Part shown: positions 6,086 through 38,095 of the stretch, piece by piece
Position numbering within the stretch: the first letter of the stretch is position 1
How the letters are laid out: each line of letters begins with the position of its first letter
Assembly (NCBI RefSeq): GCF_900112705.1
Contig: NZ_FOMR01000003.1
Coordinates: 62,001 to 126,000 of the forward strand
Reading direction: 5' to 3'
Length of the DNA: 64,000 nt
DNA from: Lentibacillus persicus
Lineage (GTDB): Bacteria > Bacillota > Bacilli > Bacillales > Amphibacillaceae
Notes under the pieces: model-generated
Told to the model about the DNA's origin: nothing
What the model saw: only the letters and a program-made list of their open reading frames with translations
Database searches by the model: none
Program-made: the position numbers and the translations under genes

Positions 6086-6101
6086 GTTCTTTACTAAGAA
6101 C
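6086..6101. promoter_or_regulatory. SinR-type operator, lasso operon, proximal
   Basis: GTTCTTTACTAAGAAC is a palindrome with 6-bp arms and contains the SinR box GTTCTTT exactly. It lies 23 nt before the cyclase start, between the promoter and the ribosome site. SinR consensus GTTCTYT is known from B. subtilis; binding here is inferred. Confidence 0.65.
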
Positions 6102-6167
6102 CCCAAAAGTAAAAAAATGACTTAATTTGCTGCATGTTTTATTGCATCAGTAAATTAAGTATGCCAC

Positions 6168-6216
6168 TTCATAGGTTCTGTATAAAGAACATACAACTTT
6201 TTGCGTGTAATTTCAA
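6168..6216 (-). promoter_or_regulatory. Candidate lasso operon promoter with SinR-type operator
   Basis: On the minus strand TTGAAA (6211-6216) and TATGTT (6188-6193) are 17 nt apart. The palindrome GTTCTTTATACAGAAC (6175-6190) overlaps this -10 and the start site. A weaker alternative is TTGTAT (6191-6196) with TATGAA (6168-6173), whose 17-nt spacer would contain the operator, the same geometry as the eps promoter. The operator differs from the eps one at one core base. Both promoter readings are inference. Confidence 0.55.
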
Positions 6217-6247
6217 TAGGTTTTTAAAACTTTTCTTAAAATTTTTC

Positions 6248-7393
6248 TCAGATGTTAATTGGAGCTTTCTCAATCGTCTCCTGCCATGCTTTAAACGCCA
6301 AACTTTCCGGCAGTTCAACGTCATCAAACGTAATAATTTCACCCTCTTTGACCTTGTTCGTTATAAGAGCATTGACCAACAGCCCAATCGGCACATGATT
6401 TTCATTCCCAGAGATCTCAACCGCTTCACCTCTGACTTGAAAACTGCCAATGCCTTTATCAATTATCTCACCGGGCTGCAGTGCTCGTTTTGGAATGGCT
6501 GCGACACTGACTGTAGGTTCTTTGCCATTATTTAATAGAACACCGCCTCCGCTTGCCACACGTTTAATTGTCTTAATCACTTCCAAGTGACACAAGTGAT
6601 AATTTTGCAGAATAGTGTAATACGGACCATTGCCCATCTTATAATATTTCAAGGCTTCCTCATGCCTTTTGTCGTGTTCAGCAGTGATAAAGACCCCCGG
6701 CGGACCTTTTGGTGACACAACGAAGTCACTGATCGGGCAACCTAAGCGATCAGCCACTTTTGCCAGCTCAGCACCTGTTTTGTTTATGTCTTCCGATTCA
6801 GGTGCCAGCAGTCCATCTTTTGCAATTCCGGCTCCAAGACCGTTGGCCACCAATGCCTGTTCCACCTGCACTTTTGTCCCGTCCGTAAATGAAGTTGTCA
6901 TATCCAGTCTGACACCATTTCGCTGTGACCAATACTGCATATCTTCAAGGACTGGATCCAGTTTCATGAAGCCTTTAATATTGCCATAGACAAGGGGCTT
7001 GAATCCCATATCAACGACGTTTTCATGCAGTGATGCCAAGCACCCCGGCTGGTCACCTTCTGCTTCAGTAATAAAGCCCCTTTTGGCAAAATAAGAACCG
7101 GTTGTCACCTGAAGTTCAGCATTCATTGTGACAACCGGTTTGCCTGCCTTTATCGCCTGGTCAATTACTTCGCTTCCATAAATGATATCGCCACTGCACT
7201 CAACTACCATGTCACACGTGGCAATGAATTCTCGGGTTGAGTTTGTGAGCGCCTCGCAGAACGGATAATCACCCATCTTTGAAATATCGCGCCGCGTCAA
7301 TACTGCTGTAAGCTGAAGCTCTGGCTGCCGGTTTACTTCAATGGCAATCCCTTTTCCAATAAAACCCGTTCCGGCAATCCCAATTCGTGTCAT
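6248..7393 (-). CDS. COG4091-type dehydrogenase (homoserine-dehydrogenase-like, SAF domain)
   Basis: A 381-residue NAD(P)-dependent oxidoreductase-like protein. The Rossmann motif GIAGTGFIGKG opens the protein. The middle part resembles homoserine dehydrogenase, and the C-terminal 90 residues (VSVAAIPKRALQPGEIID to the end) resemble an SAF domain. This matches COG4091, whose reactions are mostly unknown. It follows rfbC by 90 nt, with its own AGGAGG and a palindrome half-matching the SinR operator just upstream. It may process a sugar or polyol for the polysaccharide, but nothing in the sequence names a substrate. Confidence 0.75.
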   Translation of the reverse strand: MTRIGIAGTGFIGKGIAIEVNRQPELQLTAVLTRRDISKMGDYPFCEALTNSTREFIATCDMVVECSGDIIYGSEVIDQAIKAGKPVVTMNAELQVTTGSYFAKRGFITEAEGDQPGCLASLHENVVDMGFKPLVYGNIKGFMKLDPVLEDMQYWSQRNGVRLDMTTSFTDGTKVQVEQALVANGLGAGIAKDGLLAPESEDINKTGAELAKVADRLGCPISDFVVSPKGPPGVFITAEHDKRHEEALKYYKMGNGPYYTILQNYHLCHLEVIKTIKRVASGGGVLLNNGKEPTVSVAAIPKRALQPGEIIDKGIGSFQVRGEAVEISGNENHVPIGLLVNALITNKVKEGEIITFDDVELPESLAFKAWQETIEKAPINI

Positions 7394-7418
7394 ATAGTTT
7401 TCCTCCTTTTATCCCTGT

Positions 7419-7434
7419 AGTCTTTATAATGAAC
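7419..7434. promoter_or_regulatory. Degenerate SinR-type operator before COG4091 gene
   Basis: AGTCTTTATAATGAAC shares 14 of 16 bases with the eps operator GTTCTTTATAATGAAC at 38073; only the outer left half-site differs. It lies 26 nt upstream of the start codon. No convincing -35 was found nearby, so this is the weakest of the set. Confidence 0.4.
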
Positions 7435-7483
7435 AGTTGAAATGAAAGACTTATTCTCTTACCACATTCACGACAGACTGCTT

Positions 7484-8059
7484 TCAAGTTATGACCGACC
7501 GTTGAACTGTCTGGTGAAAGTTGATTTCGGCATCCCGCATTAACGGCTGGCCTGCATCTTTTTCCGATAACACCGGGTCTGTTGCCGGCCAGTCAATTCC
7601 AAGCTCCGGATCATTCCAAAGAACCCCTGAATCATGCGGTTTTGAATAATACACGTCAACTTTATATTGAATGTGAGTGTTCTCTGTAAGCGTGCAAAAC
7701 CCATGGGCAAAGCCTTTCGGAATTAAAAGCATTCTGTGGTTCTCATCACTGAGCATCACACCAGTCCATTTGCCATATGTCGGTGAACCTTTTCGGATAT
7801 CAACGGCAACATCATAAACAGCTCCGGTAATGACTCTGACCAGCTTTGTTTGTGCTTCAGGATTCAATTGATAGTGCAGCCCGCGTATGGTCCCTTTTTC
7901 AACAGTCAGCGAATGGTTATCCTGGACAAATTGATAATCAATTCCTGCTGCCTTCATATTTTCATAGTTATATGATTCCATAAAAAAGCCTCTGTGATCT
8001 TTAAACACACGCGGTGTTATAATTTTGACGCCATCAAGGGGCGTATCTTTCACTTTCAT
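7484..8059 (-). CDS. rfbC: dTDP-4-dehydrorhamnose 3,5-epimerase
   Basis: A 191-residue RmlC-type cupin. Family signatures include QDNHSLTVEKGTIRGLHYQ, with the active-site His in RGLHYQ, and YDVAVDIRKGSPTYGKW. It epimerises C3 and C5 of dTDP-4-keto-6-deoxyglucose in the L-rhamnose route. It is the third gene of rfbA-rfbB-rfbC and starts 14 nt after rfbB with a strong AGGAGGTG. Length is normal for the family. No rfbD (final reductase) follows, so the sugar actually made is uncertain. Confidence 0.95.
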   Translation of the reverse strand: MKVKDTPLDGVKIITPRVFKDHRGFFMESYNYENMKAAGIDYQFVQDNHSLTVEKGTIRGLHYQLNPEAQTKLVRVITGAVYDVAVDIRKGSPTYGKWTGVMLSDENHRMLLIPKGFAHGFCTLTENTHIQYKVDVYYSKPHDSGVLWNDPELGIDWPATDPVLSEKDAGQPLMRDAEINFHQTVQRSVIT

Positions 8060-8073
8060 ATAAACACCTCCTG

Positions 8074-9066
8074 TTAATTGTTAACATCTGCCGACAGGTT
8101 GTCTTGTACTGCCTCATACCATTTAGGGTTATCCAAATACCATCGAATCGTTTCTTCCAGCCCGCGTTCCAGACTGTATACCGGACGCCAGCCCAGTTCA
8201 TTCATGATTTTGTCAGGCTTGATGGCATAGCGGCGATCGTGGCCTTTCCGATCCTCAACATAGCATATAAGACTCTCCGGCTTTCTTAATAGACTTAAAA
8301 TCGTTTTGATCATGTCAATATTGCTTTTTTCATGATGACCGCCGATGTTGTAAATACTTCCCGGTGAAGCCTTGTGAAGCACTAAGTCAACCGCACGGCA
8401 GTGGTCTTCAACGTGCAGCCAGTCCCTGACATTCAAGCCGTCCCCATAGACAGGCAGATCCTTATCTTCCAAAGCATTGGTAATCATGAGCGGGATCAGC
8501 TTTTCCGGCAATTGGTATGGCCCATAGTTGTTTGAGCAGCGTGTGATGGCGACTGACATGTTATACGTTTTATAATAGGCCAACACCAAAAGATCTGCTG
8601 CTGCCTTGCTTGCCGAATAAGGGCTATTCGGTGCCAGTGGTGTTTCCTCTGTAAAATAACCCGTTTCACCTAAACTTCCATAGACTTCATCAGTGGAAAT
8701 CTGCAAAAACTTCTTTATGTCATGCTGATACGCAGCATCAAGCAATGCCCGGGTTCCACTTACATTCGTTTCAATGAATAAACCCGGATCCACAATGCTT
8801 CGATCAACATGCGACTCTGCAGCAAAGTTTACGACCCATTCAACCTTATATTCCTCCAATATTGATTTCACCAGTTTTTCATCCGCAATATCGCCTTTCA
8901 CGAAATGATAACGCGGGTCTAATGAGATTCCTCTCAGGTTTATAAGATTTCCGGCGTATGTTAGTTTGTCTAAATTAACAATGTTATAATCCGGGTAATT
9001 GCGTAATAAATATCTGATAAAATTACTTCCGATAAACCCTGCGCCACCGGTTACTAAAACAGTCAT
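8074..9066 (-). CDS. rfbB: dTDP-glucose 4,6-dehydratase
   Basis: A 330-residue extended short-chain dehydrogenase. It has the NAD motif TGGAGFIGSNF at the N-terminus, the active-site segment STDEVYGSLGE and the catalytic YSASK motif. It makes dTDP-4-keto-6-deoxyglucose, the branch point for dTDP-deoxysugars. The frame extends to a TTG at 9108. The ATG at 9066 gives the expected MTVLVTGGAGF start and has GGGAG 8 nt upstream, so it is preferred. It lies 38 nt after rfbA. Confidence 0.95.
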   Translation of the reverse strand: MTVLVTGGAGFIGSNFIRYLLRNYPDYNIVNLDKLTYAGNLINLRGISLDPRYHFVKGDIADEKLVKSILEEYKVEWVVNFAAESHVDRSIVDPGLFIETNVSGTRALLDAAYQHDIKKFLQISTDEVYGSLGETGYFTEETPLAPNSPYSASKAAADLLVLAYYKTYNMSVAITRCSNNYGPYQLPEKLIPLMITNALEDKDLPVYGDGLNVRDWLHVEDHCRAVDLVLHKASPGSIYNIGGHHEKSNIDMIKTILSLLRKPESLICYVEDRKGHDRRYAIKPDKIMNELGWRPVYSLERGLEETIRWYLDNPKWYEAVQDNLSADVNN

Positions 9067-9104
9067 TCCCCAGTCTCCCTTGCAAAGAAATTTTACAGAT
9101 GTCT

Positions 9105-10004
9105 TCAAACGAGCTGTCGCTCATCCGCTTTATATCGATTAATGTTAGCAATCCGCACCAAATACTTGCCATAATCACTTTTCTTAAGCGGCTCCGCCAG
9201 TTTCAATAATTCAGCCTCCGTAATATAGCCTTTGTTATAGGCAATTTCCTCAAGGCAAGCCACTTTAAGCCGTGTTCGTTTTTCAATAATTTCGATGAAT
9301 TGCGAGGCCTCCAGAAGTGACTCATGTGTGCCGGTATCAAGCCAGCTGAAACCGCGCCCGATTAATTCAACTTTCATTTGATCACGCCTGACGTATTCAT
9401 TAAGGATATCGGTGATTTCCAATTCACCTCTGGCAGACGGGGCAACCGATTTCGCAATATCAACCACTTGCCGATCAAAGAAATACAGGCCGGTAATCGC
9501 AAAATTTGATTTGGGCGAGACCGGTTTTTCTTCAATGGAGAGCACTTTCCGTTCTTCATCAAACTCAACAACCCCAAAACGCTCAGGATCGCTGACGTTA
9601 TAGCCAAAAATGGTGGCTCCATCAAGGTGTGCACGCACGCGCTCGAGCTGAGAGATGAATTCATGACCATAAAAAATGTTGTCGCCCAGTATCAGTGACA
9701 CATCATCGTCCCCGATAAAATCCTCTCCGATAATAAAGGCTTCTGCCAGTCCGTTTGGTTCATCCTGGATCGCATAGGTTAATTCAATCCCGAGTTCCTC
9801 GCCATTACCAAGCAACTGTTCAAATCTGGGTACATCCTTTGGTGTGGAGATAATTAAAATCTCCCGAATGCCGGCCAGCATTAAAACTGACAATGGATAA
9901 TAAATCATCGGTTTGTCATAGACAGGCAGCAGCTGTTTCGAAACCGACCGCGTCAACGGGTACAACCGCGTCCCATTGCCGCCTGCCAGAATAATTCCTT
10001 TCAT
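9105..10004 (-). CDS. rfbA: Glucose-1-phosphate thymidylyltransferase
   Basis: A 299-residue RmlA-type enzyme joining dTTP and glucose-1-phosphate. The signature [17 protein letters not shown] opens the protein; [10 protein letters not shown] and the late [12 protein letters not shown] are typical. GAGG lies 10 nt before the ATG at 10004, preferred over an upstream in-frame GTG at 10013. It is the first gene of rfbABC and lies just downstream of a terminator-like hairpin, so this group may be transcribed both by read-through and from a promoter of its own, which I could not locate. Confidence 0.95.
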
Positions 10005-10032
10005 AATGAACACCTCGCAGGAAAAATTTTCA

Positions 10033-10061
10033 ATAAAAAAGCATCTCTTCGTCAGGATGCT
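10033..10061 (-). terminator. Terminator between the eps gene block and rfbA
   Basis: On the minus strand AGCATC pairs with GATGCT (10056-10061 with 10040-10045) and is followed by TTTTTTATTG. It begins 8 nt after the stop of the glycosyltransferase at 10069. It probably ends, or attenuates, the long eps transcript. Confidence 0.6.
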
Positions 10062-10068
10062 CTATGTG

Positions 10069-11067
10069 CTAGATTTTTGTTTGTCCATTTGCTTGCTGTT
10101 TGGCGCTAATATTTCTGATCGATACAAATAATACCGGGCTGATACTGAATACGACACACATTATTTTCTGTTTCCCGCTTATTTCAGTACTTTTTAATAA
10201 ATGGATTAGACTTCGGTTAAATGTTCGTTTTAATTTTTTTAAAGCAGTTTCGGTTTCTTGACTACTTGATTTAGCCAAAAAGTAATACCAAAAGAATTTT
10301 TCCATGTAATGTTTAAGAGCCTTTTGATGCAGTGTACGTTCTTTCTTTTTTCTGAAAAACACCTCCCGCTGCTTTAAGGCATACACGGCATCCAATTGAT
10401 TTACTTTAAAAGGTGAATGCATCAGACTGCCCTTACGTTGAATGTAATAATATAAACCTGTTTGCACAAATGTTGTTTTGCCAGATTGATAGAAAAGCTT
10501 ATGGGCAACTGTTTCGTCATCATTTATATTCCCTTCTTCAAACCTTATGTTATCGAACAAATAGCGTTTGTACAGCTTATTCCATGGAACAACAAACGTA
10601 ATATAATTGGCAGTATAAAGCTGATGAAGGGCCTCGATGTGATCAAAATGCCGCACCTGATAATTGTCCTCATAAGTTTTTGTGTCACAAGATGCATCCT
10701 CATCCACTTCAACATAATTGCAAATTACAATGTCAGATGAATGGGCTACAGCGATATCATATAGCACCTCAAACATATACTGATTAAGCAGATCGTCGTT
10801 ATCGGCAAATCCAATATAACGACCTTTTGCGATGTTCAGACCGGCATTACGCGCAGAAGCCACCCCGCCATTTTCCTTGTGAACAACTTTGACCCTGTTG
10901 TCAGCTCTGGCATAGGCATTACACAGTTTGCCTGTTCCATCTGAAGAACCATCATTTACCAAGATTAATTCAAAATCAGTAAATGTCTGAGCCAGAATGG
11001 AGTCAACACACCTTGGAAGCAAGCGTTCCAAATTGTAAACAGGTACAATAATACTTATTTCAGCCAT
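10069..11067 (-). CDS. Family 2 glycosyltransferase
   Basis: A 332-residue GT2 enzyme (GT-A fold). The N-terminus ISIIVPVYNLERLLPRCVDSI and LVNDGSSDGTG are the nucleotide-sugar-binding part. GFADNDDLLN stands at the usual DxD position. Acting at the cytoplasmic face of the membrane, it would add one sugar to the lipid-linked repeat unit; donor and acceptor cannot be read. It is the last gene before the terminator that closes the eps block and follows the kinase-like gene by 21 nt. Confidence 0.88.
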   Translation of the reverse strand: MAEISIIVPVYNLERLLPRCVDSILAQTFTDFELILVNDGSSDGTGKLCNAYARADNRVKVVHKENGGVASARNAGLNIAKGRYIGFADNDDLLNQYMFEVLYDIAVAHSSDIVICNYVEVDEDASCDTKTYEDNYQVRHFDHIEALHQLYTANYITFVVPWNKLYKRYLFDNIRFEEGNINDDETVAHKLFYQSGKTTFVQTGLYYYIQRKGSLMHSPFKVNQLDAVYALKQREVFFRKKKERTLHQKALKHYMEKFFWYYFLAKSSSQETETALKKLKRTFNRSLIHLLKSTEISGKQKIMCVVFSISPVLFVSIRNISAKQQANGQTKI

Positions 11068-11088
11068 AACAGCCCTCCTCAGCTTGGT

Positions 11089-12267
11089 TCATCGTTTAGC
11101 AGCACTTGGTGTCAAGCCTCTCATTTCTTCCAACACCTTAAATCGGTTGACCCAAGTTATAACTTCTTGAAACTCTTCTGCCTGATCCACTTGGATATCT
11201 ATCAATTTTAGGTGGATCAGTTCCAAATAGAATAAATAACGATAAAGCATAAATTGATCCGTGGTTTTTATCGTCTTGGTTGTTCCTTCCTGTTTAAGCT
11301 TTTCAAAAAATAAACGGCAGCCGTTATCCAGCTCCCGGTTCAATTTCTTTATAGTGTTTTTGTTTACAGTATCAAAATGTGTATTTTTGGATGCCAGCAT
11401 AAACATTGCATAGTAAAAATCAAAGTAAACTGATCGAGTACCTAAAGTCGTCCAATCAATCACATAATTGCGCCCATTCCTCATCAAAATATTGCCTTCC
11501 CACAAATCACCATGAGATAGGACCAGATCCATCTCTCCCTCATGCGGTTTCTCTTCAAGCTGCGAGTGAATAGTCTTTAAAAAGTTCCTTACTGGCTCGA
11601 TTCCCTGACGTATACTGCAGTTAAATTCAAGATGATAAAGCTGCGACTCCAGAGCAAAATATTTATCTTTTATAACCCTGGAAAAACTGACTCTCTTTGG
11701 CTTAGTCGAGGTCAAAATATCACTCAGCAAAGGAAAAACATCATTATAAAAAGTCGTTAACTGATCTAAATCATAAATAGGTCTACTGCCATTGATATAT
11801 TTCTCCGTTATACAGCGTTTTTTTAAACTATAGCAAATGACGCCCGGTGTCAGCCTGCATTCTTCCGACTTTTTTGCGTTTCTGATTTGCTTTTCAACTT
11901 CCGATATACTTAAACGATCACCGAACACTGTGGTAACAATCTGTTTTTCCAAGTCGAACACCTTTATCTCACCATTGCGCAAATTCAACAAAAAATGTCC
12001 AAAATAGTTCGTCTCCACTGTTTGTCTTGTGTTATCAGACTTATACTTGGCGCAATAGAATTTATAAACAAATTGTATAGCACGCACAGCCCTGATTATA
12101 AATTGTGGTACTCGATTGAACATAGACCGAGCAGCCTTTCTTTCCAAAAATGAGAATGGCCGCATTTTGAAGTATAAATTTAGAAAAAGCTTCACAAGAC
12201 TTTGATCCAGATTGATATAAACGTTATTTCCAACCAAGACAAACATATGACAGGTCCTCTGCTTCAT
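11089..12267 (-). CDS. APH/choline-kinase-like phosphotransferase
   Basis: A 392-residue protein. Its second half has the aminoglycoside/choline-kinase catalytic signature: LSHGDLWEGNILM (catalytic Asp, metal Asn) and, 12 residues later, the metal-binding VIDWTTLG. The first 150 residues match nothing I recognise. In a polysaccharide operon such a kinase could phosphorylate a sugar, or a group later attached to the polymer; antibiotic resistance seems unlikely. The start is set at the ATG at 12267 because AGGAG lies 6 nt upstream; an in-frame GTG at 12289-12291 lacks a good site. It is adjacent to the ABC transporter gene. Confidence 0.72.
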   Translation of the reverse strand: MKQRTCHMFVLVGNNVYINLDQSLVKLFLNLYFKMRPFSFLERKAARSMFNRVPQFIIRAVRAIQFVYKFYCAKYKSDNTRQTVETNYFGHFLLNLRNGEIKVFDLEKQIVTTVFGDRLSISEVEKQIRNAKKSEECRLTPGVICYSLKKRCITEKYINGSRPIYDLDQLTTFYNDVFPLLSDILTSTKPKRVSFSRVIKDKYFALESQLYHLEFNCSIRQGIEPVRNFLKTIHSQLEEKPHEGEMDLVLSHGDLWEGNILMRNGRNYVIDWTTLGTRSVYFDFYYAMFMLASKNTHFDTVNKNTIKKLNRELDNGCRLFFEKLKQEGTTKTIKTTDQFMLYRYLFYLELIHLKLIDIQVDQAEEFQEVITWVNRFKVLEEMRGLTPSAAKR

Positions 12268-12293
12268 TGGTATCTCCTGTTCTATTTTCACCT

Positions 12294-14078: not shown

Positions 14079-14105
14079 ACCTTCTAAATTAATGATGAGA
14101 TTATT

Positions 14106-15296: not shown

Positions 15297-15324
15297 CAGG
15301 ATGCCCCCCAACAATTTAATACTA

Positions 15325-16416: not shown

Positions 16417-16453
16417 CTCAAGCCTCCTTTTATTTTTGTCCCCCATTCTGTTC

Positions 16454-17644: not shown

Positions 17645-17660
17645 TTCAATATGCTCACTT

Positions 17661-23682: not shown

Positions 23683-24808
23683 AAGCGCCTCCTGTCTCCG
23701 GATTGTAGAGCCGTATTAATGCGTTGATCGCTTTTGGGAGTGAGTAGCCATTCGTTTCAAACCCGGCTTTAATTTTAGATGTGTTTGTTTCTTTTTGGCT
23801 GCTCAGTTCAATAATTTCGTCCGCCCACGCTTTCGGACCATCCGACAACTTTTTTCGGGACACAAGACCGACCCTTAAATCTGCTTCAGGCTGAATGGCC
23901 TCCGAGACAAGTGCCGGAACCCCGCACGCCTGTGCTTCAAGCAAGACAAGACCAAGACCTTCATATAACGACGGGAAAACAAATACGTCCATACTATGGA
24001 GCATCGCTGCAACGTCTTCACGAATACCAGCAAAATAAATGTTATCAGTAAGCCCTTCGCTTCGTGCTTTCGCTTCGATTTGCGCTCTTAAATCCCCGTC
24101 ACCAACTAATAGCAGCTGAATGGCCGGTTCCTTTTTGACAGCGTATTTCATGACGTCCAGCAGGAACTCATGATTTTTGGCTGCAATAAACCTGCCAATA
24201 TGCCCGATAATCAGATTTTTTCCACAGCCTGCTTCCATTTTAAATCGATTAACGGAAGCCTCCGGTTTTGAAAGAAATTTTTCATACTCAATGACGTTAG
24301 GGAAATAAGTATAATCTGATTTCTGAACTTTTTTCGCTCCAAACAAATAACGCCCAGCCTGTTCGCTGCACGCAAGCGCTTGTGTCGATAACGCATTAAT
24401 CAATGGGCGCATTATCGTGGTATAAACTTTGCGAGCTAATGTGCTCGTATCATCTGACGTGGTATGAGCATGCGCGATTCGAATTTTAACCCCGGCAAGA
24501 AGCGCTGCCAACAAAGCCACACCGCAATGAAATAACGTATGGGCATGGACGGCATCGTACGGTCCATAATGTTTAATGGTTTCATAAATCGCTTTAACCG
24601 AATTCGTTTTCGTTAACCGTATAATCCGGCCTCCCATTTCCATTATTTCCCGGTCGTAATGCGCTTCTTCTTGACTGTAGGAAATAAAATCAAATGTAAT
24701 CCCTTCATGCTTCATGTACCTGAAAATGTTCATCAGCATCGTCTCAGTCCCTGCCCGATTCATCGCTCCCACCACATGAAGAATTTTTATCGGCCTGTTT
24801 GTGCTCAT
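23654..24808 (-). CDS. Family 4 glycosyltransferase, EpsF-like
   Basis: A 384-residue GT-B enzyme. Its start KILHVVGAMNRAGTETMLMN and the segments HAHTLFHCGVAL and FPSLYEGLGLVLLEAQACG (EX7E) resemble B. subtilis EpsF. A second EpsF-like gene is at 31167. It overlaps the sinR stop region by 4 nt, so SinR and this enzyme are translated from the same message. It would act at the inner membrane face on the matrix repeat unit. Confidence 0.87.
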   Translation of the reverse strand: MSTNRPIKILHVVGAMNRAGTETMLMNIFRYMKHEGITFDFISYSQEEAHYDREIMEMGGRIIRLTKTNSVKAIYETIKHYGPYDAVHAHTLFHCGVALLAALLAGVKIRIAHAHTTSDDTSTLARKVYTTIMRPLINALSTQALACSEQAGRYLFGAKKVQKSDYTYFPNVIEYEKFLSKPEASVNRFKMEAGCGKNLIIGHIGRFIAAKNHEFLLDVMKYAVKKEPAIQLLLVGDGDLRAQIEAKARSEGLTDNIYFAGIREDVAAMLHSMDVFVFPSLYEGLGLVLLEAQACGVPALVSEAIQPEADLRVGLVSRKKLSDGPKAWADEIIELSSQKETNTSKIKAGFETNGYSLPKAINALIRLYNPETGGAYERHIDHLF

Positions 24809-25161
24809 TTGCTTTTTCCTTTTTCAGACGTTCCGGACAATTTATCCTTCTGCCATTTGGCAAATTCAATCACCGTTTTATATTCCTTGAGCTGTTCTTT
24901 TTGAACGCCTGATTTTTTTAGCTCATTTACAAATTCAAGCCACTCACTTTCAGGAACCACGTTATGATTCAGTTCAAGCAGTGCACGAACTTCCACACCG
25001 AGCGCTGCTGCGATTTTTTCCATGACTTGAATCGAGGGATTGTGATTAATATTGCGTTCAATATTGCTTAAATACGATTTAGAAATGCTCGCCCTGGTGG
25101 CGCATTCGGATAAGCTAAGTCCTTTTTGCTTTCGGATTGATTGTATTTTTTTTCCTATCAT
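24805..25161 (-). CDS. sinR: SinR-family biofilm master repressor
   Basis: A 118-residue XRE-type regulator. Residues 1-62 (MIGKKIQSIRKQKGLSLSE and on) form the helix-turn-helix; the recognition helix SKSYLSNIERN is nearly identical to B. subtilis SinR (AKSYLSSIERN as recalled). Residues 70-108 (SEWLEFVNELKKSGVQKEQL, FAKWQK) match the SinR dimerisation part that SinI binds in B. subtilis. In B. subtilis SinR represses eps and tapA through GTTCTYT boxes. Here the gene is inside the eps operon, between epsN and a glycosyltransferase, 3 nt after epsN. No sinI is next to it. Negative feedback on its own operon is inferred. Confidence 0.92.
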   Translation of the reverse strand: MIGKKIQSIRKQKGLSLSECATRASISKSYLSNIERNINHNPSIQVMEKIAAALGVEVRALLELNHNVVPESEWLEFVNELKKSGVQKEQLKEYKTVIEFAKWQKDKLSGTSEKGKSK

Positions 25162-26352: not shown

Positions 26353-26421
26353 GCAACCACCACCTTTCTTTTATCATAAAATTCTCATTAATAAAGGTTT
26401 CTCTCATTCTGATTATCAGGA

Positions 26422-26782
26422 AGTGCTTAAAGCCGCTCCGGCAATATACTTCGCTTTCCATGGGCACGGCCTCGGGCCAACACGATGTTGGTCACAAAGG
26501 CGTTGCCACAGGACGTGGCGTTCTTAGCCTTTGAACCTTACCGCTTTCTTGCGGGGTCTTCGGACGCGTGCGCATCCCTTGGAGTCTTCGTATATTGCCT
26601 GCGCTGGGGATGCTTACTGTTTCTGTGGTGCTATGCGATTAAGCCAACCATAGCGAAGGAAATACACGGAGACTCCTGCGGGAGGAAAGGCCTCGGTGAG
26701 ACACCGAAGTGCTTCAGCACGAGGGGGCTCACCAGCCGCCCGCGGAAAGCGTAGTGTGTTTCCGGAGCGGAGTCATAGCACT
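26422..26782. repeat. Palindromic interspersed repeat, copy 1
   Basis: A 361-bp GC-rich element with inverted ends: AGTGCTTAAAGCCGCTCCGG at 26422 faces the reverse complement ending in AGCACT at 26782, with CCGGAGCGG inside. Inner parts such as CTCCTGCGGGAG and AGCCGCCCGCGGAAAGC are also palindromic. Copy 2 is at 39421. No gene is supported in it. Similar dispersed elements occur in many Bacillaceae genomes, as far as I recall; function unknown. It fills most of the 453-nt epsM-epsN gap. Confidence 0.8.
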
Positions 26783-26806
26783 CAAATGTAAATCAATCCC
26801 AGCCTT

Positions 26807-27436: not shown

Positions 27437-27437
27437 A

Positions 27438-28037: not shown

Positions 28038-28040
28038 GAA

Positions 28041-29144: not shown

Positions 29145-29158
29145 TCCATCCCTCCTCG

Positions 29159-30253: not shown

Positions 30254-30276
30254 GTGATATCCCTTTCAGTCTAAGA

Positions 30277-31170: not shown

Positions 31171-32285
31171 AACGCATTTTCTCCCAATATCAAATAATTT
31201 TTTTGCGTTGTTTTAGCTGTGCTTGTAATATCATAGCCTCTTTCTGCAAGTGCACGCTGGCTGATGCGCCTCTCCGGCAAATTCGCTATCATACGTAGAA
31301 TTTGCTGGACCCATATTTCCGGGTCAGTAATCGGCAAGTGCTGCACAAGCCCTGTTTTCATATCTGCTTCAGTTGTGATTTGGTGTGAGACCAGACACGG
31401 CAGCCCAGCCCCCTGCGCTTCAACCAGTGTCACCGGGAGTCCTTCGTGAAGCGACGGAAATACAAAAACATCTGAAGCATGGAGAAGGGCATGAATATCT
31501 TTCCGCACACCAAGCATTCTTACATTCTTCTCAAGGTTTAGAGCACTTATCTTTGCTTCAATTTGAGGTCTTAACGGCCCATCACCCACCAGCAGAAGTA
31601 CAATATCCGGTATCTCAATTTTTAATTGGGCTATCATATCCAGAAGCCACAGGTGATTTTTTTGCACCGCAAACCTTCCGATGTGCACCAGGACAATTTC
31701 GTCTTCTGTCAGCTGCAATTCCTTTCGAAGCGTTTTTCTTAAGCTGGTGGAGAATCGGAATTTTTCCGGTTCAATTCCGTTTTTCAAAATAAAGACATCT
31801 TCTGCTTTCCGGTTAAAAAGCCAACTGGCAGCTGCGTGTGAGCACGCATATTGATGGGTAGCATGCGACTTAATGTACTGCCCCGCGTACCATTTATATG
31901 TTTTTGACAGCAAACCACCTTCGCTTTCGGTGTTATGACTGTGTGCAATCCGGACCGGGACATTGGCTTCTTTAGCGGCCTTTAATACAAGCCCGCTCAT
32001 TTTATCCATATGAGCGTGTATGATCGTGTACGCCGGATGCTGCCTGAAAAATTGTTTCAATGCCCGGTTGAACCCTTTATGGCCCGCTTCCGTCACATAA
32101 GGAATACGGTGAACGGTTCCGCCCATTTGTTTAATTTCTGCATCAAACACGCCTGGTTTACACGTCAAAAAATCAAATTGAACTTTTGACCGGTCAATAT
32201 TCCGATAAAGATTCATAATCAACGTTTCAGCACCGCCGCGGTTCATATTGACGACTGCATGCAATATTCTTAATGGGCTGCCCAC
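31167..32285 (-). CDS. epsF: Family 4 glycosyltransferase, EpsF-like
   Basis: A 372-residue GT-B enzyme. It starts with GTG, with GGGAGGG 6 nt before it. RILHAVVNMNRGGAETLIMNLYR, CHSHNTES-like HSHNTESEG and FPSLHEGLPVTLVEAQGAG (EX7E) resemble B. subtilis EpsF well. It sits between epsD-like and GT2 genes, as in the B. subtilis order. The paralogue at 23654 is in the distal part of the operon. Confidence 0.85.
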   Translation of the reverse strand: MGSPLRILHAVVNMNRGGAETLIMNLYRNIDRSKVQFDFLTCKPGVFDAEIKQMGGTVHRIPYVTEAGHKGFNRALKQFFRQHPAYTIIHAHMDKMSGLVLKAAKEANVPVRIAHSHNTESEGGLLSKTYKWYAGQYIKSHATHQYACSHAAASWLFNRKAEDVFILKNGIEPEKFRFSTSLRKTLRKELQLTEDEIVLVHIGRFAVQKNHLWLLDMIAQLKIEIPDIVLLLVGDGPLRPQIEAKISALNLEKNVRMLGVRKDIHALLHASDVFVFPSLHEGLPVTLVEAQGAGLPCLVSHQITTEADMKTGLVQHLPITDPEIWVQQILRMIANLPERRISQRALAERGYDITSTAKTTQKNYLILGENAL

Positions 32286-33424
32286 GCCACACCCTCCCGT
32301 TCTTCCATAATTGATTGATAAATACTTGCCTTCTCTGCTAAAACGCAGTCCGTGCTGTATGTCGAAAGAATTTTGTGCCGGCCGTTTTCACCAAGCTTCA
32401 TCCTGAAATCCTCGAAATCGGCCAGTGACATTAACTTTTCCGCAAATGCGTGCGAATCCCAATCCTCCACTACATAGCCAGTTTCATAATGCTCCACCAG
32501 CTCCCGATGCCCACGGTTTGCAACTGCAACAACCGGCAGTCCGCACGCCATTGCCTCCATAACATTTACGGGAAGCCCCTCACGCAAACTTGATGCAACC
32601 GCCACATCACTCATTTGCAGAAGCCGCTCAATATCTTTTCTGAAACCTAAAAAATCCACCATATGGGCAATACCTAATTTTTCGGCAAGGTGCCGGCACT
32701 GTTGCTGGCTTTCTCCTTCGCCTGCAAGCAGGAGCCTGGCGTTTGGCACATCATCTTTTAAACGTGCAAGCGACTTAAGGAGAAATGCCTGGTTTTTATT
32801 TTTATTGAATTCAGCGGCGTTAAATAATAAAAAGTCATCCGCATGATAGCCGAATGACTTTTTAAGCTCATTTTTTTTGTTTTTGCCGATGGGTTTAAAT
32901 CGTTCCGTATCCACGCCGACACCATGAACGTGTTCAATCGTTTTGGCTCGGAATCGATGTTTTCGTGCTGTCTTAAAATCCTCATCATTAATCGTAATTA
33001 AGCTGTCGGTATGCCGCGCCAAGTATTTCTCGATTGGATAGTAAATCAGCCAGTTAGGGATTGGTGCGCCTTTACAAAAGTGAAACCCGTGAGCGGTATA
33101 AATGATTTTGGTCGCCCGTTTGCGCGCTTCTCTTCCAGCCAATCGGGCAAGAACGCCGCCCAGGGGTGTGTGGCAATGTATAATTGAATAACGGTTTTGA
33201 TCAATTAACTGTTTCAGTTGTTTGTAGGCTGTCATGTTGGACCGGCTGAGCGGTGATCGCTCAATTGGAATGTTGTATTTGTGATCGGTGTAAGGTAAGT
33301 TAATATCGCCGGCTGCGGCAACATCGACTTTCCAGCCCTGTTCTTTAAACCATTTCATATAAGGCAAATGAAAAGCTTTAAAATGGTAATCGACCGTTGC
33401 ACAGTACAGAATGCTTCCAGCCAC
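32270..33424 (-). CDS. epsD: Family 4 glycosyltransferase, EpsD-like
   Basis: A 384-residue GT-B enzyme. HFKAFHLPYMKWFKEQGWKV, HCHTPLGGVLARLA and TAHGFHFCKGAP resemble EpsD. SSLREGLPVNVMEAMACG is the EX7E donor motif. The start is set at the GTG at 33424: GGAGG lies 8 nt upstream, while the earlier GTG at 33433 is part of that ribosome site. It overlaps the EpsF-like gene by 16 nt. It follows galU by 39 nt. Confidence 0.86.
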   Translation of the reverse strand: MAGSILYCATVDYHFKAFHLPYMKWFKEQGWKVDVAAAGDINLPYTDHKYNIPIERSPLSRSNMTAYKQLKQLIDQNRYSIIHCHTPLGGVLARLAGREARKRATKIIYTAHGFHFCKGAPIPNWLIYYPIEKYLARHTDSLITINDEDFKTARKHRFRAKTIEHVHGVGVDTERFKPIGKNKKNELKKSFGYHADDFLLFNAAEFNKNKNQAFLLKSLARLKDDVPNARLLLAGEGESQQQCRHLAEKLGIAHMVDFLGFRKDIERLLQMSDVAVASSLREGLPVNVMEAMACGLPVVAVANRGHRELVEHYETGYVVEDWDSHAFAEKLMSLADFEDFRMKLGENGRHKILSTYSTDCVLAEKASIYQSIMEEREGVAWAAH

Positions 33425-33463
33425 ATGAATCACCTCCCGTTTGTGTTATCAGTGGCTGTGATG

Positions 33464-34351
33464 TTATAAAGGTTTTTTCGCGAGTTCATTTTCCAGAACG
33501 GCAGCGAGGTAGCTCAGAAGGTCTTTTCTTAAGTCATCGCGTTCCAGAGCTAATTCGATAGTTGTCTGGATAAACCCCATTTTTTCCCCGACGTCATACC
33601 GTTTGCCCGAAAAATTATAAGCATAGACCGGTTCGTGCCTATTCAATTCAGCAATTGCATCGGTCAGCTGGATTTCGTTGCCTGTTCCCGGCTTCTGATT
33701 GCTTAAAATGTCAAATATAGCCGGCGTTAAGATGTAGCGTCCCAATATCGCAAGTGTCGATGGGGCAGCTTCCTTGCCCGGCTTTTCGATTAATTCATTC
33801 ACCTGATAAAGCTGATTGGCCAAATGGTCACCACCGACAATCCCATAGCGGGAAACCTCTTCCTCCTTGACGCGTTGTACGCCCAGGATTGAGCCGTTAT
33901 AGCGATTATATTGGTCTGTCAGTTGTTTTAAAGCGGGCGTCTCAGCATGAACAATGTCGTCACCGAGCAGCACGGCGAAGGGTTCGTCACCGATAAATTT
34001 GCGGGCACACCAGATAGCATGACCGAGACCTTTTGGTTCTTTTTGCCGGATATAATGAATATCCACCATTTTTGATGCTTTTTGGACTTCGCTCAGCAAA
34101 GCAAATTTGCCTTTGTCCAGCAAGTTTTGTTCCAGTTCAAACGAATGGTCAAAATGGTCCTCAATAGCGCGTTTTCCTTTTCCAGTAACGATAATGATGT
34201 CTTCGATGCCGGATTCAATCGCTTCTTCCACAATATATTGAATCGTTGGCTTATCGACGATCGGCAGCATTTCCTTTGGCATTGCTTTCGTTGCCGGGAG
34301 AAACCGTGTTCCCAGGCCGGCTGCCGGAATAATTGCCTTTTTCACTTTCAT
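33464..34351 (-). CDS. galU: UTP-glucose-1-phosphate uridylyltransferase
   Basis: A 295-residue GalU/GtaB enzyme that makes UDP-glucose. Signatures are [29 protein letters not shown]-like [11 protein letters not shown] and [16 protein letters not shown] lies 8 nt before the ATG at 34351; the frame to 34378 adds residues foreign to the family. Placing galU in the matrix operon lets UDP-glucose supply rise with polymer synthesis. A 21-bp tandem array occupies the space up to epsC. Confidence 0.95.
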
Positions 34352-34399
34352 TTGATCCACACCTCTTCTCATGATCATTTAGACGCAGCAACTTTGGTC

Positions 34400-34504
34400 G
34401 AACTACAGCGATTATCTTTCAATCTACAGCGATTCCAGCTAAATCTACAGCGATAGTCTTTCAATCTACAGCGATTAAGCCTCAATCTGCAGCGATTCCC
34501 GCGA
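34400..34504. repeat. Tandem array A, five 21-bp units
   Basis: Five consecutive units of exactly 21 bp, each beginning AATCTACAGCGATT (first GAACTACAGCGATT, last AATCTGCAGCGATT) followed by 7 variable bases. It lies between epsC and galU inside the operon. No ORF or hairpin accounts for it. Confidence 0.9.
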
Positions 34505-34511
34505 ACAGGGA

Positions 34512-36335
34512 TTACACGGGGATCGCATCCTCGTTTCCGCGGAGACTGTTTTTATTGGCCACCATCAACAATTCTTCTTTCAGCTGCTTGCTCTCCATCC
34601 CATCATAGCGGGTGATGATTGTTTCGATCGCATTCATGTATAATTGCGTCGTTTTGCCGACGTAAATTTTCGGGTAAACTTGTTTGTCATGAACCTCGTC
34701 TGCCTGCAGCAACTCTTCGAAAAGTTTTTCGCCGGTTCGGATGCCGGTAAATTCAACACCAATTTCTTCAAGCGAATTCCCGGACAGTTTAATTAAGTTT
34801 TTCGCAAGGTCGACAATTTTGACAGGGTCACCCATATCCAAAACAAAAATCTCCCCGCCGTGAGCGAGTGTCCCGGCCTGTATGACAAGCCTTGAAGCTT
34901 CCGGGATCGTCATAAAATAACGGACCATATCCGGATGTGTCACCGTGACGGGGCCGCCTTTTTCAATTTGTTTTTTAAACAGCGGGATAACGCTGCCGCG
35001 GCTGCCAAGCACATTGCCGAACCTTACCGCTACAAATTTTGTATTACTCGTTTTATTTATGTGCTGAACAATCATTTCAGCCAAACGCTTCGAGGCCCCC
35101 ATAACACTCGTCGGGTTCACTGCTTTATCGGTTGAAATCATGACGAAAACTCCAACGTTGCAGCGGTCTGCGGCTTGAGCTGTATTGCGTGTGCCAATAA
35201 TATTGTTCTTGACCGCTTCTTCCGGGTTGCGTTCCATCATCGGCACGTGTTTGTGTGCCGCGGCATGATAAACCACATCCGGCTGATAACGGCGCATTAC
35301 TGTCATCATTTTGCTTTCGTCCTGTATATCAGCAATTTCGGTTCTGAAATTAATCCGACTGCCTGAATGCTCCTTCAGTTCCATTTCGATGTCATAAATG
35401 CTGTTTTCACCATGCCCGAGCAAAATAAGCTGTTTCGGGTTAAAAGCTGTAATTTGTCTGGCTATTTCGGATCCAATTGACCCGCCCGCACCGGTAACCA
35501 AAACTACTTTGCCTGTGATACTTTCTGAAATGCTCTCAATGTCCATATCAACAGGATCTCTGCCAAGCAAGTCCTCAACCTGTACATCACGAAATTGGCT
35601 GACAGCAACTTTTCCGGTTATCAGGTCTTCTAAAAGGGGCAAAATTTTGGTCGTAGCTTTTGTTTTGGCACACTCCTGAAAAATTGTATTTAATTCTTTT
35701 CGATTAAGAGAGGGGATTGTAATGATAATGTTATCAATGTTCAGTTCCTCAGTGGAGCCAGCAATGTCCTTGACACCGCCAACAACCGGGAGACCCAAAA
35801 TATCGAGTTTTTGCTTTTTTGGATCGTCATCAATAAATGCGACTGGGTGGAGATTGCCTTCGTTTTGTTTGATTAACTGACGGGCTACCATCGTGCCTGC
35901 TGATCCCGCTCCAATAATTAATGTCCGGATTTTCTGGTCCTGTTTATTCATGACCGAATCCCGGTACAGACGCCAAACGAACCGCGACCCGCCGATCAGA
36001 AACATATGGAGCAGCCAAGTGACGGCCAGCAGTCTGAATTGGATTTCCTGAAGAAATATGAGTTGAAGTAAAGATGCACACAAGATGGAAAGTGTTACGA
36101 CTTTTAAAATGATTAATAATTCCTTTGTGCTGGCGTATTCCCAAAACTTTTTATAAAGTTTGTACTTAATTGAAAACAGATGATGGCTTATTAATATAGT
36201 AATAGAGGTTAGGGCGACCGGTATATTGATGACATGGATGGTCGCGTTCACAAGAAAACTGCTGATAAAGATTGCCGTCAGCACAATACACGAGTCAATT
36301 ACGAAGAATAGCGATAAACGCTGCCGATAAGTCAT
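34512..36335 (-). CDS. epsC: EpsC/PglF-like UDP-GlcNAc 4,6-dehydratase
   Basis: A 607-residue membrane-bound dehydratase. Four membrane segments fill residues 10-110. A first nucleotide-binding part has LIIGAGSAGTMVARQ, and the SDR domain has VLVTGAGGSIGSEI, STDKAVNPTSVMGASKR and the catalytic region. It makes the 4-keto-6-deoxy sugar that EpsN aminates. Length and layout fit CapD/PglF. The ATG at 36335 has a GGGGGG run just upstream. It follows the probable EAR element, as epsC does in B. subtilis. Confidence 0.93.
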   Translation of the reverse strand: MTYRQRLSLFFVIDSCIVLTAIFISSFLVNATIHVINIPVALTSITILISHHLFSIKYKLYKKFWEYASTKELLIILKVVTLSILCASLLQLIFLQEIQFRLLAVTWLLHMFLIGGSRFVWRLYRDSVMNKQDQKIRTLIIGAGSAGTMVARQLIKQNEGNLHPVAFIDDDPKKQKLDILGLPVVGGVKDIAGSTEELNIDNIIITIPSLNRKELNTIFQECAKTKATTKILPLLEDLITGKVAVSQFRDVQVEDLLGRDPVDMDIESISESITGKVVLVTGAGGSIGSEIARQITAFNPKQLILLGHGENSIYDIEMELKEHSGSRINFRTEIADIQDESKMMTVMRRYQPDVVYHAAAHKHVPMMERNPEEAVKNNIIGTRNTAQAADRCNVGVFVMISTDKAVNPTSVMGASKRLAEMIVQHINKTSNTKFVAVRFGNVLGSRGSVIPLFKKQIEKGGPVTVTHPDMVRYFMTIPEASRLVIQAGTLAHGGEIFVLDMGDPVKIVDLAKNLIKLSGNSLEEIGVEFTGIRTGEKLFEELLQADEVHDKQVYPKIYVGKTTQLYMNAIETIITRYDGMESKQLKEELLMVANKNSLRGNEDAIPV

Positions 36336-36399
36336 GAATCCCCCCCCTTTCCTGATAGAGTGTTTATAATGCGTGTGAACAACCATAATATGTAATTGA

Positions 36400-36512
36400 A
36401 ATGGGCATCCAACCCGTCCTCACTCCACACCACCGACGACTTGCGTCTAAGGTCTGTTTCAACCCACAGCATGATCGAGTGCCTGCGTTGATAATGGTTA
36501 GCAGACATCACC
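36400..36512 (-). promoter_or_regulatory. Probable EAR (epsC RNA) antitermination element
   Basis: The 228-nt gap between epsB and epsC holds a structured stretch on the minus strand. GCACTC (36477-36482) pairs with GAGTG (36421-36425) around an inner hairpin GAC-GCAA-GTC (36438-36447); CTGTGGGTTGAAACAG can form another. In B. subtilis the EAR element lies in this place and lets RNA polymerase read through terminators in the eps operon. Placement and structure support the call; I could not compare it with the Rfam model. Confidence 0.65.
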
Positions 36513-36518
36513 AAAAAC

Positions 36519-36541
36519 CATTATTAAATTCTTAATAACGA
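36519..36541 (-). terminator. AT-rich hairpin after epsB
   Basis: On the minus strand TTATTAA and TTTAATAA form a short A/T stem followed after TGG by TTTTTGG. It lies between epsB and the EAR-like RNA and may be a weak attenuator that limits unmodified transcription. Confidence 0.4.
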
Positions 36542-36563
36542 ACACAAGTGGTAAAATTTTTTG

Positions 36564-37223
36564 TTACTTTTCATTCATTATGATGCCTGTGAGATCGGCT
36601 TGAGAGAGCTCCAGGACCCTTCGTGCATCAGCTGCCTGTTCGATTTGCGTTTTTCCGCGACGGAGAACTAATACAACACCGCTGCATTGATTTGCAAGGA
36701 CGCGTGTTTCGGTTGAATGCAGAATCGGCGGCGAATCAATCAGCACTTTGTCATAAACCTTACCGGCCTTATCCAGAAGGGCGGTCATTAATCCGTTGCC
36801 CAATACTTCAGCAGGATTCGTCGTGATTGATCCGCTCGTCAAGATATCCAGCTGACCAACACCTGAGCTGCAGACCGCTTCACTGAATTTTTTATCACCT
36901 TTAAGGATATCCGTAAGACCCGGGCTTTCTGATTTTTTAAAAATATGATGAATGGCTGGTTTTCTTAAATTTGCATCGATGAGAAGCACTTTTTCTTTCT
37001 GCTGGGACAGCGAAACCGCCAAATTCGTTATGGCAGTCGATTTGCCTTCATTTTTGCCGGGAGAGGTGAATAATAAAATCAGATTATCGCTTTCTCCGGT
37101 GGTGAATTTGATATTTGCCCGGATTGTGCGAAATTGATCCGATATAATCGACTCGGGATTTGAATGGGTAACAAGGTTTTGCTTTTTTCGTTTTACGGCT
37201 TTCATGCGTTTATTTAATATCAA
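36564..37223 (-). CDS. epsB: EpsB-like protein tyrosine kinase (BY-kinase)
   Basis: A 219-residue cytoplasmic P-loop kinase. SPGKNEGKST (Walker A), VLLIDANLRKP (Walker A') and KVLIDSPP (Walker B) are present. The start is set at the TTG at 37223, because GAGGTG lies 6 nt upstream and this gives MILNKRMK, like the MILRKK start of B. subtilis EpsB as recalled. GTG at 37232 is inside the ribosome site. The protein ends in TGIIMNEK with no C-terminal tyrosine cluster, which such kinases usually autophosphorylate. It works with EpsA. Confidence 0.88.
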   Translation of the reverse strand: MILNKRMKAVKRKKQNLVTHSNPESIISDQFRTIRANIKFTTGESDNLILLFTSPGKNEGKSTAITNLAVSLSQQKEKVLLIDANLRKPAIHHIFKKSESPGLTDILKGDKKFSEAVCSSGVGQLDILTSGSITTNPAEVLGNGLMTALLDKAGKVYDKVLIDSPPILHSTETRVLANQCSGVVLVLRRGKTQIEQAADARRVLELSQADLTGIIMNEK

Positions 37224-37947
37224 CAGTCTCACCTCTGACAGCCATTTCCTTTGTTTTTTTCTTCTTATTTACGAATTTGCGTTTCGTCATATTTGAAATG
37301 GTTCCAAGTACAGGGACACCTAAAATGTCTTCTGCTTCGTCTTCCTTTCTGATGGCGCCGTCCATGGCATCCAGTATAAACACGAGTCCTATCCCGGTCA
37401 TAAGCCCGAAGACAATCGCCATGATTAAGGTGCGATTTTGATCGGTATTAATCGGCGCTGTGTTCAATTCCGCCTCAGACAGCAGCTGCACCCCTTTGAA
37501 ATCAAGAATTTGTTTAATTTCTTGTTTAAACATTGCTGCAGTGGAATTGGCAATATTCATCGCCGTTTCCGGATCGCTGTCCGTGGCTTTAATGCTGACC
37601 ACCTGCGACTCCTCTATTTGCGTTACTTCAATTTGACCTGCGATTTGGCCGGGGCTTCTCGCCAATTGAAGCTCATTTGCTACTGTTTCCATAATCATTG
37701 GGTCAGTGATCATCACCATCAGTGTGTTCATATCCATTTCTTCTTCACCTGTTCCGATAATGACACGGGTAGACGTTTCGTATAGCGGTGTGCTGTTCAT
37801 ATTGCTGTAAATGTAGCCGCCCGCTCCTGCAATAAGTGTCACAAGCAAAATAATCCAAAATCGTTTTTTAATGAGAGTGAAATACTCGCGCAAATTGATC
37901 TCTTTTGGGCCCTGATCTTTAAAATGATGCTCGTTTATCTTGTGCAA
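37210..37947 (-). CDS. epsA: EpsA-like chain-length regulator / kinase activator
   Basis: A 245-residue Wzz-domain membrane protein. Membrane segments lie near residues 30-50 (FWIILLVTLIAGAGGYIYS) and 170-190 (LIMAIVFGLMTGIGLVFIL), with an outside loop between them. The short cytoplasmic tail ends KKKKTKEMAVRGETVDIK and would activate EpsB. The start is TTG with GGGTGA 5 nt upstream; no ATG fits. It is the first gene of the operon and overlaps epsB by 14 nt. The promoter and two SinR-type operators lie upstream. Confidence 0.88.
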   Translation of the reverse strand: MHKINEHHFKDQGPKEINLREYFTLIKKRFWIILLVTLIAGAGGYIYSNMNSTPLYETSTRVIIGTGEEEMDMNTLMVMITDPMIMETVANELQLARSPGQIAGQIEVTQIEESQVVSIKATDSDPETAMNIANSTAAMFKQEIKQILDFKGVQLLSEAELNTAPINTDQNRTLIMAIVFGLMTGIGLVFILDAMDGAIRKEDEAEDILGVPVLGTISNMTKRKFVNKKKKTKEMAVRGETVDIK

Positions 37948-38001
37948 TCAACTCACCCTATCTTTCTATGGAATATTAGCGTATTCTGGAGATTTTATAT
38001 T

Positions 38002-38017
38002 ATTCGTTATAAAGAAC
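38002..38017. promoter_or_regulatory. SinR-type operator, eps leader
   Basis: ATTCGTTATAAAGAAC fits the local palindrome GTTCnTTATAAnGAAC at all but the first base. It lies about 50 bp downstream of the eps -10, in the leader of epsA, 55 bp before the start codon. A second operator near the promoter would allow cooperative SinR binding, as inferred. Confidence 0.6.
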
Positions 38018-38066
38018 ATTTAAATTAAAAAAATTTGGACCGATATTTCCGCATTTATTAGTTTAA

Positions 38067-38095
38067 AGTATAGTTCTTTATAATGAACATGTCAA
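38067..38095 (-). promoter_or_regulatory. eps operon sigma-A promoter with SinR-type operator in the spacer
   Basis: On the minus strand TTGACA (38090-38095) and TATACT (38067-38072) are 17 nt apart, a near-perfect sigma-A promoter. The spacer is almost exactly the palindrome GTTCATTATAAAGAAC (38073-38088), which read from the other strand contains GTTCTTT, the SinR box. A repressor bound there would cover both polymerase contacts. The transcript would carry about 110 nt before epsA. Confidence 0.85.

Follow-up and report, generated by a model that had tools for sequence, protein, structure and literature searches.

Gene content of the locus

The DNA considered here is a stretch of 64,000 nucleotides from Lentibacillus persicus (contig NZ_FOMR01000003.1, positions 62,001 to 126,000; hereafter the window), which carries an eps matrix locus together with a gene cluster for a lasso peptide of the paeninodin family. 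Palindromes resembling the binding site of SinR, the regulator of the biofilm switch, are found in front of both the eps operon and the lasso cyclase gene. The sites are real and conserved, as both promoters keep them across the order, and comparison of sequences strongly favours SinR-family control of the lasso cluster together with eps as the best explanation. Every assigned gene lies on the minus strand, from epsA (37947) down to a nucleotidyltransferase gene (884), and the lasso cluster is situated about 32 kb from the eps promoter sites. The sites and the features closest to them are as follows.

38067 to 38095, minus strand: eps promoter TTGACA-N17-TATACT, 11 of 12 consensus positions
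38073 to 38088, minus strand: eps operator O1, GTTCTTTATAATGAAC, 0 mismatches to the palindrome GTTCnTTATAAnGAAC; minus-strand reading GTTCATTATAAAGAAC
38002 to 38017, minus strand: eps operator O2, ATTCGTTATAAAGAAC, 1 mismatch, 71 bp downstream of O1
37210 to 37947, minus strand: epsA-like gene (Wzz), by domain match
36564 to 37232, minus strand: epsB-like kinase gene (AAA_31 match; named epsB by position)
36528 to 36543, minus strand: third operator-like palindrome, ATTCTTAATAACGAAC, 2 mismatches, between epsB and the EAR RNA
36402 to 36513, minus strand: epsC RNA (EAR, RF01735), 105 bits against a cut-off of 42
34512 to 36386, minus strand: epsC-like NDP-sugar epimerase/dehydratase gene, by domain match
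24805 to 25161, minus strand: SinR-like paralogue in the eps operon; best PDB match SinR (1b0n/3zkc), E 4e-24
7419 to 7434, minus strand: weak palindrome ahead of the DRL/COG4091 gene, AGTCTTTATAATGAAC, 2 mismatches
6248 to 7393, minus strand: DRL-type oxidoreductase gene (COG4091-like; PF21135)
6188 to 6216, minus strand: putative lasso promoter TTGAAA-N17-TATGTT, 9 of 12 positions, its -10 overlapping lasso operator O1
6175 to 6190, minus strand: lasso operator O1, GTTCTGTATAAAGAAC (GTTCTTTATACAGAAC), 1 mismatch
6086 to 6101, minus strand: lasso operator O2, GTTCTTTACTAAGAAC (GTTCTTAGTAAAGAAC), 2 mismatches, located 89 bp downstream of O1 with the cyclase start about 20 bp further on
4078 to 6066, minus strand: lasso cyclase (C protein) gene, its start picked by the ribosome-binding site

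Operator sites in the window and the genome

Sites were searched for with the palindrome GTTCnTTATAAnGAAC, in which two positions were left free, in searches that allowed mismatches and with the reversed pattern serving as control. A preliminary description of this DNA had placed palindromes at 38073, 38002, 6086, 6175 and 7419, and all five coordinates hold, with zero to two mismatches; the site at 36528, beside epsC and its EAR RNA, was absent from that list and is kept in relatives. The same description held that the sites contain the SinR box GTTCTYT, which is true of four of the six (6086, 6175, 38002 and 38073), each with a perfect half, and of neither 7419 nor 36528. The palindrome at 7419, proposed as a weaker operator before the COG4091 gene, was rejected: two relatives were readable ahead of this gene (L069, and L187 over about 130 bp) and neither has a counterpart.

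Within the window, the palindrome is matched 15 times at up to three mismatches against 3.5 expected, a number reached by none of 100 shuffles. By itself, the 7-mer GTTCTYT shows weak enrichment (30 versus 17.4, with 3 of 100 shuffles reaching 30), and because it stands so little above chance it is the palindrome, and not the bare box, that counts as evidence. Over the 3.3 Mb genome there are six places at up to one mismatch, three in this locus and the other three within genes, and 36 places at up to two mismatches, compared with 21 for the reversed control. A genome-wide search had been suggested as a measure of how rare the motif is outside promoters, and its outcome agrees with the proposal: at up to two mismatches all six window sites are intergenic versus four of the 30 elsewhere (Fisher p 1e-4, on a crude call of open reading frames (ORFs)). 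The 26 of 30 places outside the locus that fall inside ORFs, by the same crude call, are about what chance predicts for a gene-dense genome. Six of the 36 sites lie within 32 kb (binomial p 1e-6), and the locus is the only promoter-site cluster of the motif seen in the genome at this threshold; none of the 36 places is near the genome's own epsA paralogue at C4:55192.

Promoter layout

The eps promoter consists of TTGACA, one base, the 16-bp operator and TATACT, such that O1 fills the 17-bp spacer, and this arrangement of the operator within the spacer is that of the best-scoring eps promoter in 43 of 47 genomes. The lasso side is arranged differently. Among 56 rows compared, the -10 of the best promoter overlies the start of the operator (with the -35 located 26-27 bp before it) in seven, the window included, and an exact TTGACA lies 34-43 bp ahead of the operator in 22. 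A lasso operator that fills the spacer between -35 and -10 was also considered, and this arrangement was dropped, as the best promoter has the eps layout in 0 of the 56 rows.

Conservation of the sites in relatives

The cyclase was searched for in 295 genomes, that of L. persicus included, and was found in 56. Sites were then counted within 400 bp of 73 cyclase copies from 55 of these 56 genomes at up to two mismatches, the broken cyclase of G144 being left out, as were the incomplete second copies in G152 and G154. A site is present at 56 of the 73 copies (44 of the 55 genomes, own included) and two or more sites are found ahead of 26, compared with 0 of 73 for the reversed control; upstream regions simulated 40 times gave a mean of 0.3 and a maximum of 2 of 73. 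A de novo count of 8-mers ahead of the cyclases puts GTTCTTTA/TAAAGAAC first in over-representation (47 of 73 against 1.9 expected), and GTTCTTTA contains the SinR box. The consensus of the sites in relatives is GTTCTTTATAAAGAAC, in which the box is present even at the two positions that the search had left free. The lasso operator columns hold 1.5 bits of information against 0.3-0.4 in the flanks, a difference that stems partly from the selection of matches.

In 21 named loci, 31 sites at up to two mismatches fall in 8.4 kb of upstream sequence versus 36 in 455 kb elsewhere, and some of the latter precede epsA (L076, L085) or the true cyclase start (L067, L068). Others precede the kinase gene in L079, L081 and L082 (at about 12.2-12.35 kb), where operator-like sites lie between cyclase and kinase and a precursor gene might start. 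L076, L080 and several further genomes have two cyclase genes separated by a few hundred bases, and in a number of genomes each of the two has operators of its own.

The eps side was examined at 47 of the best-scoring epsA hits, own included (174 genomes had a hit; lower-scoring Wzz genes stood outside the test). All 47 copies have a site within 500 bp and 38 have at least two; the reversed control gave 0. EAR RNA was found in 20 of 20 relatives, and the palindrome in the gap between epsB and epsC is present in all 20 at up to three mismatches and in 18 at up to two (reversed control 0 of 20). This third operator-like site suggests that control is exerted inside the eps operon too, where one might guess at road-blocking or at repression within the operon.

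In at least 48 of the 56 genomes the lasso cluster shares a strand with epsA at a distance of no more than 60 kb; it lies 17-44 kb downstream of epsA in at least 42 of them and 3-8 kb upstream in at least six.

Association of the sites with SinR

A SinR homologue (E <= 1e-12) is present in 207 of the 295 genomes. The exact site was found in 88 genomes (127 sites), which comprise 86 of the 207 with SinR and 2 of the 88 without it (G041, with GTTCCTTATAAGGAAC, and G254), compared with 12 genomes and 12 sites for the exact control pattern. Counted as sites, exact matches outnumber control matches by 125 to 12 in SinR-positive genomes and stand at 2 versus 0 in SinR-negative ones. Of the lasso genomes, those with SinR carry the site in 44 of 51 cases and those without it in 0 of 4 (p 0.001); the four that lack SinR (G042, G071, G077 and G078) have five cyclase copies between them and no site. 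At E <= 1e-8, SinR was found in all 14 of the named lasso genomes asked (of 21). In four loci assigned to Paenibacillus or labelled Bacillus sp. (L070, L071, L072 and L084) a SinR-like gene is divergent from the lasso genes with the operators in between, and in L073 such a gene directly precedes them; all five of these SinR-like genes retain the recognition-helix segment KSYLS.

The tasA-type operons, which are a known target of SinR, served as a positive control. Nine stretches were picked for an exact site near sinR, and in six of them the site precedes a TasA/camelysin-family gene (Pfam-confirmed) beside sinR. In L231 the exact site precedes an AAA_31 kinase-like gene near sinR, and in L232 and L233 it lies between divergent sinR and sigma factor genes; in the last two loci a short second SinR-like helix-turn-helix (HTH) gene is located on the other side of sinR. 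The tasA-type loci also hold genes that we take to be SipW-like, of which two were scanned with no Pfam match. No TasA-family (PF12389) gene was found in the search of the L. persicus genome itself, despite the presence of SinR, SinI and eps.

The orthologous SinR of L. persicus is encoded at C7:211868-212194 and matches PF01381 (60.1 bits) and PF08671 (51.8 bits), both over their cut-offs. The adjoining SinI ORF matches PF08671 at 38 bits, over the cut-off, and scores 20.1 with the NCBIfam SinI model against that model's 80. The preliminary description had pointed to a SinR homologue with almost the same recognition helix inside the eps operon, and as to the helix this is correct (KSYLSNIERN versus KSYLSSIERN, in a protein that scores as HTH). 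The protein at 24805-25161 is nevertheless a paralogue of the ortholog at C7, and its SinI-type C-terminal domain is below the Pfam threshold (PF08671 12.6 bits, cut-off 31.4). The paralogue lies 11.0-13.4 kb past the epsA start in 19 of 20 relatives asked (G245 is the exception), and because this position in the eps operon is kept, it is taken to be part of the system, probably in feedback. The predicted binder of the operators may be the SinR of C7, the paralogue, or both. Five lasso genomes have a single SinR hit (G163, G190, G208, G243 and G273) and four of them have the cyclase site, so that the paralogue seems dispensable for the site, with the reservation that in G163 and G273 sinR has a further, short SinR-like HTH gene next to it, which falls below the threshold of E <= 1e-12.

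The lasso cluster and the remainder of the eps locus

The other assigned features of the window are listed below.

7484 to 34378, minus strand: remaining eps locus, with glycosyltransferases, EpsG, sugar transferase, aminotransferase, ABC transporter and rmlA/B/C-like genes
3969 to 4124, minus strand: lasso precursor of 51 aa, paeninodin family (NF033524 33.6 bits, cut-off 27), overlapping the cyclase end
2820 to 3755, minus strand: HPr-kinase-like tailoring kinase (PF07475 35.9 bits, cut-off 33.3)
2533 to 2823, minus strand: lasso B1 (PqqD-type RRE), over curated cut-off
2069 to 2515, minus strand: lasso B2 leader peptidase, over curated cut-off
884 to 2056, minus strand: NTP_transf_5 nucleotidyltransferase (PF14907 202.8 bits, cut-off 31.2)
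1 to 984, minus strand: open frame running out of the window

For the cyclase, the top family is the lasso cyclase model, at 372 bits versus a curated cut-off of 525, and both its position and its relatives agree with a lasso cyclase. The NCBIfam HprK models score the tailoring kinase below cut-off. Lasso precursors have a threonine at position -2, and by this rule the core would begin AKWRGDSFD, with Asp9 as the ring acceptor. The open frame at the window's edge is, judged by the order of genes in such clusters, perhaps the exporter gene. A Bacillaceae-1 small RNA (RF01690) is located at 26477-26543, inside the eps locus and before the aminotransferase and the SinR paralogue; this RNA is also found in L210, near EAR.

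A proposed joint switch for matrix and lasso peptide

It is proposed that the whole locus would behave as one matrix regulon. SinR-family repressors would bind the 16-bp inverted repeats, each of two GTTCTTT-like half sites, which are paired at the eps and lasso promoters. As eps O1 fills the spacer between -35 and -10, bound SinR would exclude RNA polymerase, and with O2 located 71 bp downstream a SinR tetramer could grip both sites, causing the DNA to loop. At the lasso promoter it is the putative -10 that the upstream operator overlaps, and the other operator, 89 bp further on and before the cyclase start, would complete the pair. Sequestration of SinR by SinI would then open the eps and lasso operons together, with the consequence that a paeninodin-type lasso peptide, which is probably phosphorylated, would be produced as well in cells switching to matrix production. 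The SinR paralogue inside the eps operon would be made at the same time and would probably feed back, and the operator beside EAR may add control within the eps operon. Since the same switch sites front both operons, species after species, production of the peptide very probably goes hand in hand with that of slime. The core claim of the preliminary description, a tie between the lasso cluster and eps through SinR-type operators, thus appears well founded, in view of the sites kept at both promoters, their link to SinR presence and the sites at tasA-type operons.

Several observations weigh against this interpretation. All 12 genomes with the control pattern also have SinR, which indicates that genome size or base composition adds to the association and that its p value of 4.5e-14 is too good; kinship (shared ancestry) inflates all counts. 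The SinR-less lasso genomes provide few independent cases and are confounded by linkage, since two of the four share a genus and none shows an eps link among the matches listed. In seven of the 51 lasso genomes with SinR, the 400-bp search at up to two mismatches found no site; of these, G050, G229 and G264 have pairs with three mismatches at the usual place, G067, G101, G137 and also G229 have sites 0.5-1.4 kb upstream, and G243 has none within 1.5 kb even at up to three mismatches. Judged by eye, the spacing within operator pairs does not preserve helical phasing. The window's lasso promoter has weak boxes, and scanning for promoters yielded 11 sites in the lasso region and 6 in the eps region, no more than the 12.1 and 6.2 obtained with shuffles, for which reason the lasso promoter is regarded as tentative. 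The effect of composition is small beside the excess of sites, and confidence that a SinR-family protein controls lasso together with eps therefore remains high.

One alternative keeps the operators and changes the protein: the sites could be bound mainly by the local SinR paralogue of the eps operon, or by its counterpart on the lasso side, so that the lasso genes would ignore the SinI switch. The place of the paralogue inside the eps operon in all but one of the relatives asked would fit such a role, as would the SinR-like genes that adjoin the lasso operators in five named loci with a nearly identical recognition segment. This arrangement is nonetheless unlikely, as the cyclase site is kept in most single-hit lasso genomes (subject to the extra short genes of G163 and G273), the same site fronts tasA-type operons beside sinR, and the SinI-type hook of the paralogue is under the Pfam cut-off.

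A second possibility is that most lasso transcripts start at the eps promoter and reach the lasso genes by read-through, aided by EAR, with the local operators merely trimming this supply. EAR lies in the B. subtilis eps operon as well, where its role is antitermination, and no terminator-like site was found between 3500 and 8200; the downstream, same-strand position of the lasso cluster in at least 42 of 56 genomes would also permit read-through. The cluster lies upstream of epsA, however, in at least six genomes, an opposing SinR-like gene stands just ahead of the lasso operators in L070, L071, L072 and L084, and the operator columns are far richer in information than their flanks (in part through match selection), so that supply by read-through is judged distinctly improbable.

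Recognition of the palindrome by a different conserved matrix regulator, such as RemA, which acts at the B. subtilis eps and tapA promoters at sites overlapping those of SinR (PMC8481266), is scarcely credible, given that RemA, according to the same source, binds poorly conserved repetitive DNA with no strict palindrome, that the published SinR box appears both in the site consensus, including its two free positions, and in the de novo words, and that the sites follow SinR presence (RemA presence was not searched).

SinR-family control of the two operons in this locus leads to a wider and more tentative proposal, namely that in the Bacillales and in Paenibacillus the paeninodin-type lasso peptide may be a product of matrix cells, jointly switched by SinR and SinI with feedback by the paralogue, and may serve as a biofilm component or signal and not as an independently timed antibiotic; the balance of evidence stops somewhat short of favouring it. 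The shared and conserved operator names a likely regulator for paeninodin-type lasso peptides. It also allows a prediction of the timing and cell type of their production, suggests a practical route to the activation of silent clusters by removal of SinR or expression of SinI, and brings a possible biofilm role of the peptide within reach of a test with one deletion strain.

Comparison with known systems

In the published work on SinR binding, SinR is described as preferring the GTTCTYT inverted repeat by about tenfold, and its sites at eps and yqxM as spanning 80-100 bp, for which looping was proposed (PMC3163267). The present locus shares with these promoters inverted sites of the GTTCTYT type, several per promoter, and the paired sites found here have spacings of 71 bp at eps and 89 bp at lasso. 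SinI beside SinR, and EAR in the eps operon, are likewise found both in the known system and here. What the window adds is a lasso operon served by an operator pair of its own, a SinR paralogue within eps and, next to EAR, an operator-like site that is conserved; the search for a TasA-family gene in this genome came up empty.

Clusters for paeninodin-like lasso peptides and LPP have been described in polysaccharide loci by Popov et al. 2026 (PMC13381572), where pbaB1 and an eps gene are reported to rise jointly in stationary phase, a biofilm role is speculated upon, and paeninodin-type lasso peptides are said to have no known biological role. Enzymes of the same kinds (cyclase, HprK-like kinase, RRE, B2 and NTP transferase) and a polysaccharide locus are found in both cases. 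SinR has 0 occurrences in the main text of that article, which, as far as its accessible portion goes, names no regulator or operator; the shared operators and the link to SinR presented here go beyond it. The novelty put forward in the preliminary description must be narrowed accordingly: no report of SinR control of a lasso peptide was found in the open-licence literature, but co-localisation and co-induction of eps and lasso genes had already been published, with no part assigned to SinR in the text available (PMC13381572).

The nearest functional parallel is the lipopeptide kurstakin of Bacillus thuringiensis, described as a secondary metabolite that is likewise controlled by SinR and needed for biofilm (PMC3909190); the present case differs in that a lasso peptide cluster is physically joined to eps. 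Both the regulator and the operator belong to types already known, and the target and the composite locus seem to be new, as far as the literature searched extends.

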